Shown here: positions 17,231-22,626 of the stretch, in pieces
Layout: each line of letters starts with the position of its first letter
Numbering within the stretch: the stretch's first letter is position 1
From: an uncultured Alphaproteobacteria bacterium
Lineage (GTDB): Bacteria > Pseudomonadota > Alphaproteobacteria > Micavibrionales > CSBR16-224
Direction of reading: 5' to 3'
DNA: 64,000 nt
Assembly (NCBI GenBank): GCA_950054485.1
Contig: CATLPD010000003.1
Location: 186,001-250,000 of the forward strand
Program-made: the position numbers and the translations under genes
The notes under the pieces: model-generated
The model's input: only the letters and a program-made list of their open reading frames with translations
Told to the model about the DNA's origin: nothing
Database searches by the model: none

Positions 17231-17311
17231 CCCCTGAAAACTGGCACGGTATGTGCATATTATATGGGGAATAGAGAGCCGGGGGGCTTTGAGCAGAAGG
17301 GAGAGAGGTCT

Positions 17312-18265
17312 ATGACCGCAGCATTGCACCACATAGGATCTGAAATAATCAATAAATATCAGCAGCTTGCTGGCAAGGATGTCTTTAATGCAATTGAAGA
17401 TGCCAGCCGCACAACAGGTGTTGATTTCGGCTATTTGCTGGAGCAGGCGCAGGCAGAAAGTAACTTTGATGCCGATGTGAAGGCAAAAACATCCAGTGCG
17501 ACAGGTTTATATCAGTTTATCGAACAGACCTGGCTGGAAATGGTTGCCAAACACGGTTACAAACACGGTTTGGGACAATACGGCCAGCACATCAACTTTA
17601 ATTCCAAAAACGGCAGTATATCCGTCAGCTCGCGCGCCATGAAAAGCGAGATTCTTGAATTGCGCAAAAACCCCGAAATCGCCTCCAAGATGGCAGCTGA
17701 ATTTGCCAAGGACAACAAAGGGTATCTTGAGTCCCAAACACGCCGCGATATCGGTTCAACCGAAATGTATCTGGCGCATTTTCTGGGTGCGGGCAGCGCG
17801 GCAAAATTTATCAATGCGATGGATCGCAATGACGGTCAGACAGCTAACCGTTTATTCCCTGATGCAGCGCGCGCCAATAAAAATGTTTTTTATAATAAAA
17901 ACGGATCACCGAAAAGCCTGCAGCAGGTTTATGCCTTTTTTGATAAGAAGTTTTCGAACACGCCGGTGACACCGCAGCAAGCACCGACCAGCCCGATCAA
18001 GGACGTGCCCGAACAAATGCTGCATTTTGCAAGTGCTGAAGATAACTTGCCGGATATGATAAATGTGATGACGATGGATTTGGCCTCCAGCGCCTTTTCA
18101 CCGGCACCGTCTACGGCTTACAATTTCAGTTCGAACAGCTGGAAGGGTAACGATACGCTGAACGAGCTGGATGTGATCATGCTGTCACATATGATGCGCA
18201 CATGGACACATGAAGACAGCAGCCGTGGTTATGATGCCTACCGCACATCCGGAAGATATGCATAA
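17312..18265 (+). CDS. Lytic transglycosylase (SLT-type)
   Basis: The 317-residue protein carries a soluble-lytic-transglycosylase-like domain with the likely catalytic Glu at E49 (LLEQAQAESNFD), followed by SATGLYQFIEQTW and the later YLAHFLGAGSAAKFI. This cleaves peptidoglycan glycan strands. No obvious signal peptide is present, which is odd for such an enzyme; it may use another route or be released at lysis. I choose ATG 17312 because of a strong GGGAGAGAGG ribosome site; an upstream in-frame ATG (17264) adds 16 charged residues without a ribosome site. The 3' end overlaps convergent sppA by 28 nt. Confidence 0.82.
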   Translation: MTAALHHIGSEIINKYQQLAGKDVFNAIEDASRTTGVDFGYLLEQAQAESNFDADVKAKTSSATGLYQFIEQTWLEMVAKHGYKHGLGQYGQHINFNSKNGSISVSSRAMKSEILELRKNPEIASKMAAEFAKDNKGYLESQTRRDIGSTEMYLAHFLGAGSAAKFINAMDRNDGQTANRLFPDAARANKNVFYNKNGSPKSLQQVYAFFDKKFSNTPVTPQQAPTSPIKDVPEQMLHFASAEDNLPDMINVMTMDLASSAFSPAPSTAYNFSSNSWKGNDTLNELDVIMLSHMMRTWTHEDSSRGYDAYRTSGRYA

Positions 18266-20094
18266 GCACTGGTCGATGCGCTATACCCCTGAAATGTTTT
18301 CAATATGATTTTTAATGGATTATCCATGGCAACACCGTTTGTCAGGATATCGAGTATTTCCTCGAGCGGTGATTTTTTGGGTGGATACTCTACAATTTTG
18401 ACGCTTTCGGGGTTGTCTGCGTTTACAACAGATTTTGCGTGATGAAGGGCCTGATGAAGGCCGCCGATTTCGTCAACCAGCCCGATTTCCAATGCTTGTT
18501 CGCCCGTCCAGACGCGCCCGCCGGCAAGCTCATTGCGTAGTTTATCTATTGGAATATTACGTCCTTCGGATACGCGGCTTAGAAAGGCTTCGTATGTATG
18601 GTCAAGCAAAGCACTTACCTTTGCGCGTTCACCTGCATTAAATCGGTCGGTTGATGACCATAAACCAGCATTATCGCCAAAATTATATTCTGCGATATTT
18701 ACACCGGTTTTATCGAGAAGACCGCCAATGGTAATTTTACCGCCAAGAACGCCGATGGAACCCGTCAGGGTCGCAGGCTGGGCAAAAATGTGGTCTGCCT
18801 TTGCAGATATCCAATATCCGCCAGATGCCGCAGCGCTCGACATTGAGATAATAACGGACTTGCCATCTTTTTGTGCCCGCTCGACGGTGCGGGCAATCGT
18901 TTCAGATGCACTGGCAGATCCACCAGGGCTGTCAATACGCAATACGATTGCGCCTACTCTGGAATCGCGGCGTGCTTGTGACATGGCCGCAGATATTTTT
19001 TCAGCGGACAGGACCGGGCCGCCGCCAATGGGCGCCAGCATGACATCGTTACTGTCACCGGCCATAATTGCACCGCTGGCATAAATGACAGCCACACGTG
19101 ATACTGGAATGTCTTTTGTTTCTTCGGTCTCATCAAATGACTTCTGGCGCTCTTCCAGCTTTGCTGCCAGGCCTTCATCCTCTTTGCCGAGCATATAATT
19201 ATAATAGAGGTCAATCTCCCAAAATTTTGCGACATCTTTGCCGCCGGCTTCCTCGCGCGCCCGATCGACCATTTCGTCAACATATCCCAAATGGTCTACC
19301 AACCCCGCATCCAGAGAGTGCTGGTCAGTCAGCGGTGCGTTATCAATCAGTGTGGCGATTTCTGTGTTTGAAAGTTTACGCGAATCTGCCATACCCGCGA
19401 CCATTTGCGCATTTAAGTCCGATAGAAGCCGGCGGGTCATTTCTTCGTTTTCTTTTGACGGTGTGTTGCGTGTCATAGGCTCTACAGCTGTTTTATATTC
19501 GGCGCGCGCCATCATATCCGCATGAATGCCCAATTTATCGAGAGTCTCTTTAAAGAACGGTAACTGGCCGCTGAGCCCCGTGATGGAAACATTACCAATC
19601 GGCTGCAGCCAGACTTCATCAAAGGCACTACCAAGATAATAATCCTTCATACCGTTTGAAAAATCACCAAAAGCCGGTGCAAAGACAAAGGTGAATTTGC
19701 CGCTGGCCTGAAAACGTTTGATGGCGGCACGTAATTCCTGCACTTGGGCAATGCTGATGGTGTTGGGCTTTATACGTGCAATAAATCCGGTGACTTTCGG
19801 GTCATCGGCCGCAGCATCTAGCGCTGTAATAAATTCCTGTAATAATAATGGTGACGATAAAAGCGGGCTGGAAATGCTGGGCGGGGGTGAAACTTCGGGC
19901 AGGCTGTTTTCAAACGTATAGGTTAAAACGGTGTGATTTGAAGGTTCTGGATTTCCGACCTGACCGATTCTGTTCAGCGTAACAAAAGCGAAAATGAATG
20001 ATATAAATACCATCATGCCAATGGCTGTGAAAAAGCGCAATGCATAGCGCCCTAGTTTTTTTGTGAATGATGAATGCTTTAAGTTGTTAGTCAT
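18238..20094 (-). CDS. sppA: Signal peptide peptidase SppA, long (67K) type
   Basis: SppA degrades cleaved signal peptides in the inner membrane and periplasm. The 618-residue protein has an N-terminal membrane anchor (about 20-42) and two S49 domains, the long form as in E. coli. The general base is K201 (ARAEYKTAVEP) and the nucleophile is S424 (AAASGGYW), from the two halves as expected. LRIDSPGGSASASE and TGSIGVLGGK are typical S49 sequences. The gene lies convergent to the lytic transglycosylase, and its upstream side opens onto the GANTC-rich intergenic region. Confidence 0.95.
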   Translation of the reverse strand: MTNNLKHSSFTKKLGRYALRFFTAIGMMVFISFIFAFVTLNRIGQVGNPEPSNHTVLTYTFENSLPEVSPPPSISSPLLSSPLLLQEFITALDAAADDPKVTGFIARIKPNTISIAQVQELRAAIKRFQASGKFTFVFAPAFGDFSNGMKDYYLGSAFDEVWLQPIGNVSITGLSGQLPFFKETLDKLGIHADMMARAEYKTAVEPMTRNTPSKENEEMTRRLLSDLNAQMVAGMADSRKLSNTEIATLIDNAPLTDQHSLDAGLVDHLGYVDEMVDRAREEAGGKDVAKFWEIDLYYNYMLGKEDEGLAAKLEERQKSFDETEETKDIPVSRVAVIYASGAIMAGDSNDVMLAPIGGGPVLSAEKISAAMSQARRDSRVGAIVLRIDSPGGSASASETIARTVERAQKDGKSVIISMSSAAASGGYWISAKADHIFAQPATLTGSIGVLGGKITIGGLLDKTGVNIAEYNFGDNAGLWSSTDRFNAGERAKVSALLDHTYEAFLSRVSEGRNIPIDKLRNELAGGRVWTGEQALEIGLVDEIGGLHQALHHAKSVVNADNPESVKIVEYPPKKSPLEEILDILTNGVAMDNPLKIILKTFQGYSASTSAYAYLPDVR

Positions 20095-20324: not shown

Positions 20325-20356
20325 AAAAAAAGCCCCGTAACACAAGGTCACGGGGC
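20325..20356 (-). terminator. Rho-independent terminator, minus strand
   Basis: GCCCCGT (20332-20338) pairs with ACGGGGC (20350-20356), and the minus-strand transcript then enters a run of seven U (20331-20325). The nearest annotated minus gene upstream ends 235 nt away, so either a small RNA or a long 3' UTR ends here. Confidence 0.7.
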
Positions 20357-20418
20357 AAAGCAATCATCGAAGCGAAGTTTGCAAAGAAACCAAATCGGGG
20401 TGAAAAGGTTTTCTTCAC

Positions 20419-20464
20419 GACTCGAGTCTTCACTGAATCAGGGGTAAGAGTCGAGTCTTTTTTT
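20419..20464 (+). terminator. Terminator-like hairpin built from GANTC sites, plus strand
   Basis: GACTCGAGTCTT (20419-20430) pairs with AAGAGTCGAGTC (20446-20457), 11 of 12 positions, followed by seven T (20458-20464). No plus-strand gene is annotated upstream, so the RNA it would end is unknown. Confidence 0.6.
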
Positions 20465-20548
20465 AGAAAAAAGCGATAAAATTTTATTACTCTTTTATTT
20501 CAAGGGGTTGCACCAAGCTGTTGAATCAAAGATTCTATTGGTTATGAA

Positions 20549-20589
20549 AACGATTCGATTCTAGTTTTAAAGAATCGGTGCGAATCGTT
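20549..20589 (-). terminator. Bulged hairpin after the orphan gene
   Basis: AACGATTC (20549-20556) pairs with GAATCGTT (20582-20589), and inside it GATTCT (20557-20562) pairs with AGAATC (20571-20576), with a 5-nt bulge. It begins 2 nt after the stop of the minus gene. The following U-run is short, so termination is plausible but not certain. Confidence 0.45.
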
Positions 20590-20591
20590 AA

Positions 20592-21011
20592 TTAATTTCC
20601 TAATGTAAATCGACTAAAATGACTGCGGCTGAACCTAGGCTTGTAACTTTTCAAAAACTTACTTTTTAAATCGGTGTAATCTTCGGTTTTGAAACAAATG
20701 TCGTTTCGGCAACTGTAATATCTAAATGCCGTATTGAGAAAACTGTTTTCTTCGCGCCGGAAAATTTGCAAAACATCTCTATAGCTATATCCGCCTTGAT
20801 GGTTCTTTGTGAATGGCAGTTTATACTTAGGGATAAAATGCTCTACATACAATTCTATAAAAACATCGTATCGATTTGAGTCTTGTTTTTTCCTGGCAAC
20901 ATATTTTGCACGGTAATGACCGGGGCGTCCGGGAAATTTATCTTCTAACCAATGGGCGGGAACACGCAGGGTAGAGATCTTACGTGGTAATTTGGATCGC
21001 TTTTTAAACAT
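20592..21011 (-). CDS. Orphan basic protein, 139 aa, likely leaderless
   Basis: The product is a small, very basic, aromatic-rich soluble protein (many Lys, Arg, Tyr, Phe) with no motif I recognise. A nucleic-acid-binding role is possible from charge alone. The in-frame GTG at 21032 lies within the promoter spacer, so I take ATG 21011; the promoter at 21018-21045 puts +1 exactly on it. The gene follows aroC by 38 nt but has its own promoter. It is more AT-rich than aroC and borders the GANTC cluster on its 3' side, which may indicate acquired DNA. Confidence 0.55.
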   Translation of the reverse strand: MFKKRSKLPRKISTLRVPAHWLEDKFPGRPGHYRAKYVARKKQDSNRYDVFIELYVEHFIPKYKLPFTKNHQGGYSYRDVLQIFRREENSFLNTAFRYYSCRNDICFKTEDYTDLKSKFLKSYKPRFSRSHFSRFTLGN

Positions 21012-21017
21012 AATGCC

Positions 21018-21045
21018 ATAATAACTAGCCACACAAATATGTCAA
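21018..21045 (-). promoter_or_regulatory. Promoter of the orphan basic protein, +1 at the ATG
   Basis: TTGACA (21045-21040), a 16-nt spacer and TATTAT (21023-21018) on the minus strand. The expected +1 is 21011, the first base of the ATG. Confidence 0.6.
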
Positions 21046-21049
21046 TAAG

Positions 21050-22114
21050 CTAGAGGTGTTTGTTAAGCAAGGTTTGATCCGCCAAAACGCAGGCCATCAT
21101 CGCCTCGACTACTGGCGTGCCGCGCAGACCGACGCAAGGATCATGACGGCCCTTGGTTACGATTTCGGTTTCTGTCATGTCTTTGGTAATTGTCTGCTGC
21201 GGGATCAGGATTGAACTGGTCGGTTTGAAGGCAACGCGAACGATTAAATCCTGCCCGGTTGTAATGCCGCCCAGAACGCCGCCCATATGATTTGACAGGA
21301 AATGCGGCTTGCCGTCTTTAATGCGGATCTGATCAAGCGTATCTTCGCCGCGCGGGCCGACCATGCCGAACCCGTCACCAATTTCAACGCCTTTGACGGC
21401 ATTGATCCCCATCATCGCATCGGCAATCTGGCTTTCGATTTTCGCATATATAGGCGCACCCAAACCTGCCGGAACGCCCGACACGCGGCATTCGACAACC
21501 GCACCGATGCTGGAGCCTGATTTGCGAATGTCATCCAGATAATCCGACCATTCATCAACGACAGATGTGTCAGGGCAAAACATTGGGTTTTGATAAACCT
21601 GATCCCAATTGGGCGTATCGGTTTTAATTTTTTTCGCGCCCAGTTGAACGACACCGGCCTGAATTTTAATATCAGACCCGATAATTTTTCTGGCGACAGC
21701 GCCCGCGGCAACACGCATTGCAGTTTCGCGGGCGGATGATCGCCCGCCGCCGCGGTAATCGCGAATGCCGTATTTCATTTCATAGGTAAAATCCGCGTGT
21801 CCCGGGCGAAATTTATCTTTGATATCCGAATAGTCTTTTGACCTTTGGTCTGTGTTGTGAATGATCAGGCTGATCGGTGCGCCTGTTGTTTGCCCTTCAA
21901 ATACGCCTGATAGGATTTGGACCTCATCGGCCTCTTTACGTTGTGTTGTATGTTTTGATTGGCCTGGCTTGCGACGATCCAGATGCGGCTGAATATCGCT
22001 TTCTGATAATGCAATTTTTGACGGCACGCCATCAATCACACAGCCAATGGCAGGCCCATGGCTTTCGCCCCATGTTGTAAATCGGAAGATATGTCCGAAA
22101 CTGTTATAAGACAT
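21050..22114 (-). CDS. aroC: Chorismate synthase
   Basis: AroC makes chorismate from EPSP using reduced FMN, the last shared step of aromatic amino acid synthesis. The 354-residue length is normal. Family motifs include [16 protein letters not shown] near the N-terminus, [19 protein letters not shown] in the middle and [17 protein letters not shown] near the C-terminus. The ATG at 22114 overlaps the stop of the upstream gene by 1 base (TGATG), a coupled junction. An extra upstream TTG in frame is not needed. Confidence 0.97.
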
Positions 22115-22626
22115 CAATTTGATCCCAGAATATCGTTGATCTTGCGAAGCGGTCCTGTTTCATCGGGAATAGCCGGCAATTTTAATTCGCCTTTTTTAAT
22201 GTAAAGGTTCGGGAAATCGGGCAGTTTCGTTTCGTCCATTTTCAAATAAATGTCACTGACCATCTGGTTTTTATAATGGTGCGTTTTTTCAATCGGCTCT
22301 GAGCGGGTTCCGGTTATGTGATCATATGGAATCGTGAAAAATTGTTTCTGCTGCGTTTCATATTTCAGATGATCTTCATAAAACTGAAAGCGCTGGCCTT
22401 TGGCCAATTTTTTTAGGATGACAGGCATAAGGAAAGCTTCCAGAAGCATCAGGCCTGAAATAGCGAGCAGGATGTTAAAGGTGAATTGTTCGATTTCCTG
22501 AACACTATATAGCGTAATCGCAACAACCAAAACAATCAGCGAAATCACAAAGCTGGCCGCCGCCATGATCTTGAAAAGATTCTGGTTGGGGATCGAGCGC
22601 AATGTGAATTCAGGTGCTTTGGTCAT
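22114..22626 (-). CDS. Two-segment membrane protein with a PH-like domain
   Basis: The 170-residue protein has two membrane segments (about residues 20-42 and 50-70). After them comes a beta-rich cytoplasmic domain, with [25 protein letters not shown] resembling bacterial PH (bPH) domains, as in YdbT-like proteins. The identification rests on shape rather than a strict motif. It lies between fabI and aroC in one minus-strand run: fabI ends 12 nt before it on the coding strand order, and its stop overlaps aroC's start. Function unknown. Confidence 0.65.

Follow-up and report, generated by a model that had tools for sequence, protein, structure and literature searches.

To our knowledge, promoters timed by methylation are known mainly from protein genes. 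The closest described counterparts of the element reported here are the ctrA P1 and mipZ promoters of Caulobacter crescentus, a genome with both CcrM and GcrA, in which GANTC lies over the -35 and near the -10 or the start. As described in the available part of PMC3667746, the GcrA footprint on ctrAP1 covers 13 nt at the -35 when the promoter is hemimethylated, and the -35 to -10 region when it is fully methylated. The available part of PMC7987155 gives YGAKTCK as an extended site for CcrM/GcrA promoters and describes methylation sites both upstream and downstream of promoters as able to act. Two regulatory RNAs also bear comparison. CcnA of Caulobacter is a noncoding RNA tied to alphaproteobacterial cell-cycle control that acts on ribosome-binding sites, is located in the origin and presumably has CtrA as its activator (PMC8959179, available part). 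EcpR1 of Sinorhizobium is a trans-acting small RNA with stem-loops that base pairs with cell-cycle genes, is induced by stress and uses a loop to pair with its targets gcrA and dnaA (PMC4414408, available part).

We analyzed a stretch of 64,000 nucleotides from an uncultured alphaproteobacterium (hereafter the window) that contains an unusually dense run of GANTC sites. Our favored reading, which we hold to be rather probable on sequence evidence, is that this run serves as promoter and upstream regulatory region for a conserved minus-strand gene encoding a trans-acting small RNA, whose transcription is set by CcrM methylation, probably via GcrA. The proposed read-out of methylation state at a promoter would be common to this element and the CcrM/GcrA promoters, but ctrA P1 and mipZ drive protein genes, whereas the gene here encodes an RNA and its spacer carries a DnaA box in one family of relatives. 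Compared by description, the RNA differs from CcnA in that the window site is not an origin, and from EcpR1 in that it is proposed to pair through a linker, with tdk, the thymidine kinase gene, as its predicted target. The CtrA site motif is TTAA-N7-TTAA, and no such site was found at the element. The density of sites differs as well: GcrA-bound 1-kb regions average 1.78 GANTC (PMC3667746, available part) against 11 in 168 bp here. Among the papers listed in literature searches on CcrM and GANTC, Micavibrio, small RNAs and thymidine kinase, none names this RNA.

Density of GANTC sites in the cluster

The eleven sites begin at 20419, 20424, 20435, 20448, 20453, 20523, 20531, 20552, 20557, 20572 and 20582, exactly where an earlier interpretation made from the letters alone (the sequence-only reading) had placed them. 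They fall into two groups:

20419 to 20457, no strand: five GANTC sites (20419, 20424, 20435, 20448, 20453) from the inferred -35 to +1, with counterparts in relatives
20458 to 20522, no strand: AT-rich stretch separating the two groups, read from the sequence
20523 to 20586, no strand: six upstream GANTC sites; upstream GANTC groups also occur in relatives of family f3

GANTC is depleted in the window as a whole (113 observed versus 244 ± 15 in dinucleotide shuffles), which makes the cluster stand out even more. The runner-up 168-bp stretch holds 3 sites within the window and 4 in a 707.5-kb sample representing 31 percent of the genome (1085 sites in total), and in 200 Poisson simulations of 2.28 Mb at the sample's GANTC density the 168-bp maximum never exceeded 6. 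Such clusters are therefore not common in the sample, and the earlier claim that this one goes beyond chance is borne out. Although GANTC is generally enriched between genes in CcrM species (PMC3973325, available part), it is scarcely credible that palindromes simply piled up by chance in an AT-rich intergenic region, given these counts and the recurrence of the cluster upstream of the same RNA in relatives. The adjacent pairs that the sequence-only reading described as built into hairpins are indeed present, including three copies of the tandem GANTCGANTC, but the palindromic nature of GANTC largely accounts for the hairpins. Genome-wide the tandem occurs at 5 places, the three in the cluster included, and its backward control pattern also at 5, so GANTC tandems as such are not enriched.

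The predicted small RNA, its structure and its spread

The sequence-only reading saw the sites but missed what lies beside them at about 20419-20325, a previously unnoticed small RNA gene on the minus strand that is well supported by comparison with relatives:

20325 to 20419, minus strand: predicted small RNA of about 95 nt, 5' end inferred (covariance model R1)
20384 to 20415, minus strand: 5' hairpin (seen when the window RNA is folded; helices 1-3 covary in relatives)
20363 to 20378, minus strand: conserved linker ACTTCGCTTCGATGAT, the proposed pairing region (alignment)
20325 to 20356, minus strand: strong intrinsic terminator, a 10-bp stem then T7, at the same place in all aligned relatives

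Model R1, built from 13 f3 sequences and one from genome G003, with the window's own genome (G000) not included, matches the window at 20418-20326 with 40.6 bits (E 2.7e-6). The 15-nt linker ACUUCGCUUCGAUGA is invariant in 16 of 16 aligned sequences and exact in the window and in G003. In the R1-fitted alignment A4 (14 distinct rows), which leans towards the given structure and is judged here against shuffles and slid structures, 84.8 percent of cells pair, both sides change in 18 of 26 pairs (8.7 ± 1.7 in shuffles, 4-7 with the structure slid), and the covariation score is 0.355 (0.193 in shuffles, at most 0.104 when slid). Pair counts were taken from A4 because A1-A3 align the hairpin of G000 and G003 wrongly and A2 yielded no useful structure with RNAalifold. 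A conserved covarying structure and an own terminator, as in trans-acting bacterial small RNAs, are both present. The sequence-only reading had also offered a structural RNA whose stems repeat the GANTC site. We reject this, even though the GANTC folds of the cluster region are significant in RNA folding: the structured RNA adjoins the cluster and lies mostly outside it, and its conserved covarying stems contain no GANTC. A known RNA family was likewise rejected, since Rfam returned none at gathering score for the window and six relative loci (best weak match 23.1 bits against 50).

R1 matches 22 of 135 genomes of the order, 16 in f3 and 6 in f1, the latter out of 7 known f1 genomes; in a class sample of 289 genomes it matches the window's own and none of the 288 others. 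Three draft assemblies, G006 (f1), G032 and G042 (both f3), gave no match, and two extra weak matches (G049 and G052) are tdk leaders. Searching 55 relatives at the DNA level returned matches from 16 genomes including the own. Most matches were short and scattered; the G003 and G040 ones comprise the same linker and terminator upstream of sppA. Searching the 135 genomes of the order for the linker with at most one mismatch also yielded 22 genomes, in 4 of which (G011, G062, G097, G128) no element surrounds the match. The remaining loci share a unit of AT-rich stretch, GACTCGACTC or GATTCGACTC, hairpin, linker and terminator, on sppA's strand wherever sppA is readable (copies L038 and L049, at contig edges, are cut upstream). 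These comparisons support well both the existence of hairpin, linker and terminator as an RNA gene and the company of GANTC at its promoter in the two families. G052 has two copies of the RNA (contigs C69 and C221), one at a contig edge, either a duplication or an assembly artefact. A mobile or viral element was considered and rejected, the single viral-contig match to the linker being an unrelated GC-rich sequence without the element. The linker pattern also has 23 genome contig matches, of which those listed from other phyla lack the element as well.

The neighboring genes in the window are as follows, and the sequence-only reading had named the nearest two, sppA and an orphan gene, correctly:

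18238 to 20094, minus strand: sppA, downstream of the RNA on the same strand (TIGR00705, NCBIfam, E 2e-97)
20592 to 21032, minus strand: ORF of 146 aa between aroC and the element, no relatives
21050 to 22117, minus strand: aroC, chorismate synthase (PF01264, E 1.9e-135)

In the loci read, the RNA is followed in the same orientation by either sppA or an etfB-like gene, which would suit a cis-acting leader (attenuator) of the downstream gene. However, these two genes are unrelated. The RNA is upstream of sppA in f3, G000 and G003, and of the etfB-like gene in G002, with the same surroundings by eye in G001, G004 and G005; in these four genomes R1 finds the RNA away from sppA, and sppA stands elsewhere without it. 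The sppA neighborhood held no element in the members read of f2, f4, f5 and f7, nor in G001, G002, G004, G005 and G006. Differing downstream genes and sppA without the RNA indicate that the RNA is a gene of its own and not a part of sppA. Furthermore, the terminator ends 230 bp from the start of sppA in the window, no competing antiterminator was noticed in the folds, and in two genera the linker is predicted to pair with the tdk leader elsewhere in the genome. We therefore consider a leader function unlikely and a trans-acting RNA the better reading. As for the 146-aa ORF, no relative of it was found in Pfam, NCBIfam, the phage records or 142 order genomes. It has probably arrived only recently in its place between aroC and the element; a promoter-like TTGACA-16-TATTAT lies just upstream of it. 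On the far side of sppA, its end overlaps by 28 bp (18238-18265) a convergent plus-strand ORF at 17264-18265 with a weak transglycosylase match.

The inferred promoter and the proposed replication signal

The GANTC run is likely the promoter of this small RNA, kept across two little-studied alphaproteobacterial families. Two elements are proposed:

20449 to 20454, minus strand: inferred -35 TCGACT, spanning the tandem GACTCGACTC (hexamers by eye and script)
20426 to 20431, minus strand: inferred -10 GAAGAC, weak (A2 and T6 kept in relatives, T6 lost here)

In 20 of 21 loci a script recognizes TCGACT or TGGACA and, exactly 17 bp further on, a second hexamer; the remaining locus, in G004, reads TCGACA-N17-CAAAAT by eye, and the second hexamers in f3 are GAAACT, GAGACT, GATGCT or GACACT. 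The elements are putative because the hexamers were picked by eye. With this assignment the -35 spans the pair at 20448-20457, the site at 20435 lies in the spacer, and those at 20424 and 20419 overlap the -10 and the start, respectively, placing 5 of the 11 sites between the inferred -35 and +1. Among 17 aligned sequences the tandem's first GANTC differs only at N, the pattern to be expected were conservation directed at the methylation site. The 330 bp upstream of the linker contain 6-11 GANTC sites in 16 of 17 loci and 4 in the other. Counts are smaller in G001, G002 and G004 (2-3 within 250 bp of the RNA start) and in G005 (none in the 85 bp available upstream, the single site being at the RNA start itself), so that with f1 genera g2 and g3 down to 2-3 sites a dense cluster is not needed everywhere; in all four genomes a GANTC at the -35 or start persists despite other neighbors. 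The extended site YGAKTCK has 7 matches in 20400-20600, both strands counted.

The RNA could be real and the cluster nevertheless serve protection from methylation or recruitment of CcrM instead of regulation. It would then be understandable that 6 of the 11 sites sit some 70-130 bp further upstream than the -35, that known CcrM promoters do without such density, and that g2 and g3 retain so few. We judge this improbable: the tandem over the -35 is the most conserved part, and GANTC at the -35 or start is found also in G001, G002, G004 and G005, where the neighbors of the RNA are others.

The window's genome (2.28 Mb in 12 contigs) does not lack the ccrM gene on which the sequence-only reading depended. 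It encodes a CcrM-type methylase with a RAMA domain (NF050803, E 7.6e-187), whose 620 bits are below the cut-off of 830 of the Caulobacter CcrM equivalog model, adjoining an ORF read by eye as ribonuclease HII. GcrA is present in 21 of 21 genomes searched (PF07750, E 9.7e-42 in G000). With both genes present, the cluster recurring upstream of the RNA and sites falling on the inferred promoter, the proposal of a methylation-sensitive regulatory element fits, and from the position and conservation of the sites we infer a link between CcrM/GcrA and the RNA promoter.

A perfect DnaA box TTATCCACA lies in the promoter spacer of 15 of 15 f3 loci, flanked by GANTC, and 3 of these have two facing boxes; at the site in G000 and G003 no box was found within one mismatch. 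Together with the AT-rich stretch beside the sites in the window, the f3 boxes would suit a chromosomal replication origin or another DnaA/CcrM replication control site, in line with the replication-linked element that the sequence-only reading had put forward. Several boxes, as in oriC, were not encountered, however, with none in the window element and one or two in f3, and the RNA occurs next to different genes in different genomes. Along the own 307-kb contig, 29 of 31 10-kb steps show positive GC skew, with no switch at 206.4 kb. In G002 (one contig, 2.67 Mb) all 12 samples up to 1.28 Mb are positive and all 8 from 1.40 Mb on are negative, the sign changing between these two positions as well as at the contig ends; the RNA, at 1.194 Mb, has positive skew on both sides. 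Skew in the f3 samples is weak and decides nothing. On the skew of the own contig and G002 we reject an origin or terminus here, and the broader alternative of a replication control site seems very unlikely beside that of an RNA promoter. The end of the own contig C3 (300001-307508), with GC down to 0.346 and strong positive skew, is possibly a mobile region.

Proposed action, predicted target and significance

If the promoter reading is correct, RNA polymerase would start near 20419, directed by TCGACT-N17-GAAGAC, a sigma70-type promoter of poor quality. GANTC sites are present at its -35, spacer, -10 and start, and CcrM would methylate them. Passage of the replication fork would leave these sites hemimethylated, and GcrA would read the methylation state and alter transcription. 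In f3, a second input, tied to initiation, would come from the DnaA box in the spacer. The bacterium may in this way time the RNA by whether its DNA was just copied. The RNA itself would act in trans, its linker pairing with ribosome-binding sites. We infer this regulation, and the targets of the RNA, from the arrangement and conservation described above.

The best supported target is tdk, a good predicted candidate in two f3 genera. In g17 (six genomes) and g21 (G029), the linker together with the preceding CUCCC/CCCCC shows complementarity to the tdk leader across its Shine-Dalgarno sequence. We found tdk in 21 of 29 genomes searched and tested 19 of them, leaving out G006 and G042 because no RNA was found there. 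In 7 of the 19 the duplex energies are -33 to -40 kcal/mol and 0 of 500 shuffles are as good; the pairing fails in the other 12, where shuffles do as well 5 times out of 500 (G023), 34 times (G037), 42 times (G026), 52 times (G000) and more than 100 times in each of the remaining eight. Ranked among sampled gene starts, to which it was added by hand, tdk comes first of 350 in G020 and first of 326 in G040. In the window's own genome it ranks 83 of 658, so that tdk is not supported as a target there, and no other target stands out among the gene starts sampled. This rank, the weak -10 and the missing DnaA box are the points against our reading in the own genome; an input from DnaA and the targeting of tdk would apply to relatives only.

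More tentatively, and with less confidence than we place in our favored reading, we can envisage a new family of small RNAs with replication as its signal, in which up to 11 promoter GANTC sites and, in f3, the DnaA box gate a burst upon fork passage that tunes nucleotide supply (tdk, in two genera) and other targets. If true, fork passage would be linked to post-transcriptional control by a small RNA with many CcrM sites at its promoter, sites kept across genera even where the neighbors of the RNA differ. Multi-site GANTC clusters would become testable for whether one site or many, and full or half methylation, matter. The alphaproteobacteria concerned are represented here mostly by metagenome assemblies.

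Other GANTC-rich stretches were seen in relatives. In G024 of family f4, in which R1 finds no RNA, six GANTC sites lie within 168 bp (L022, 2700-2870) upstream of a small ORF with a helix-turn-helix look. A GANTC-dense stretch in G002 (L237, 7010-7400) lies between look-alikes of an ABC transporter ATPase and membrane protein (ftsE/ftsX-like, by eye). Finally, a GANTC run of about 350 bp in G020 (L106, 19212-19550) surrounds the start of ihfA (IHF alpha, NF001401, E 7.2e-45) and is possibly another CcrM-controlled promoter.
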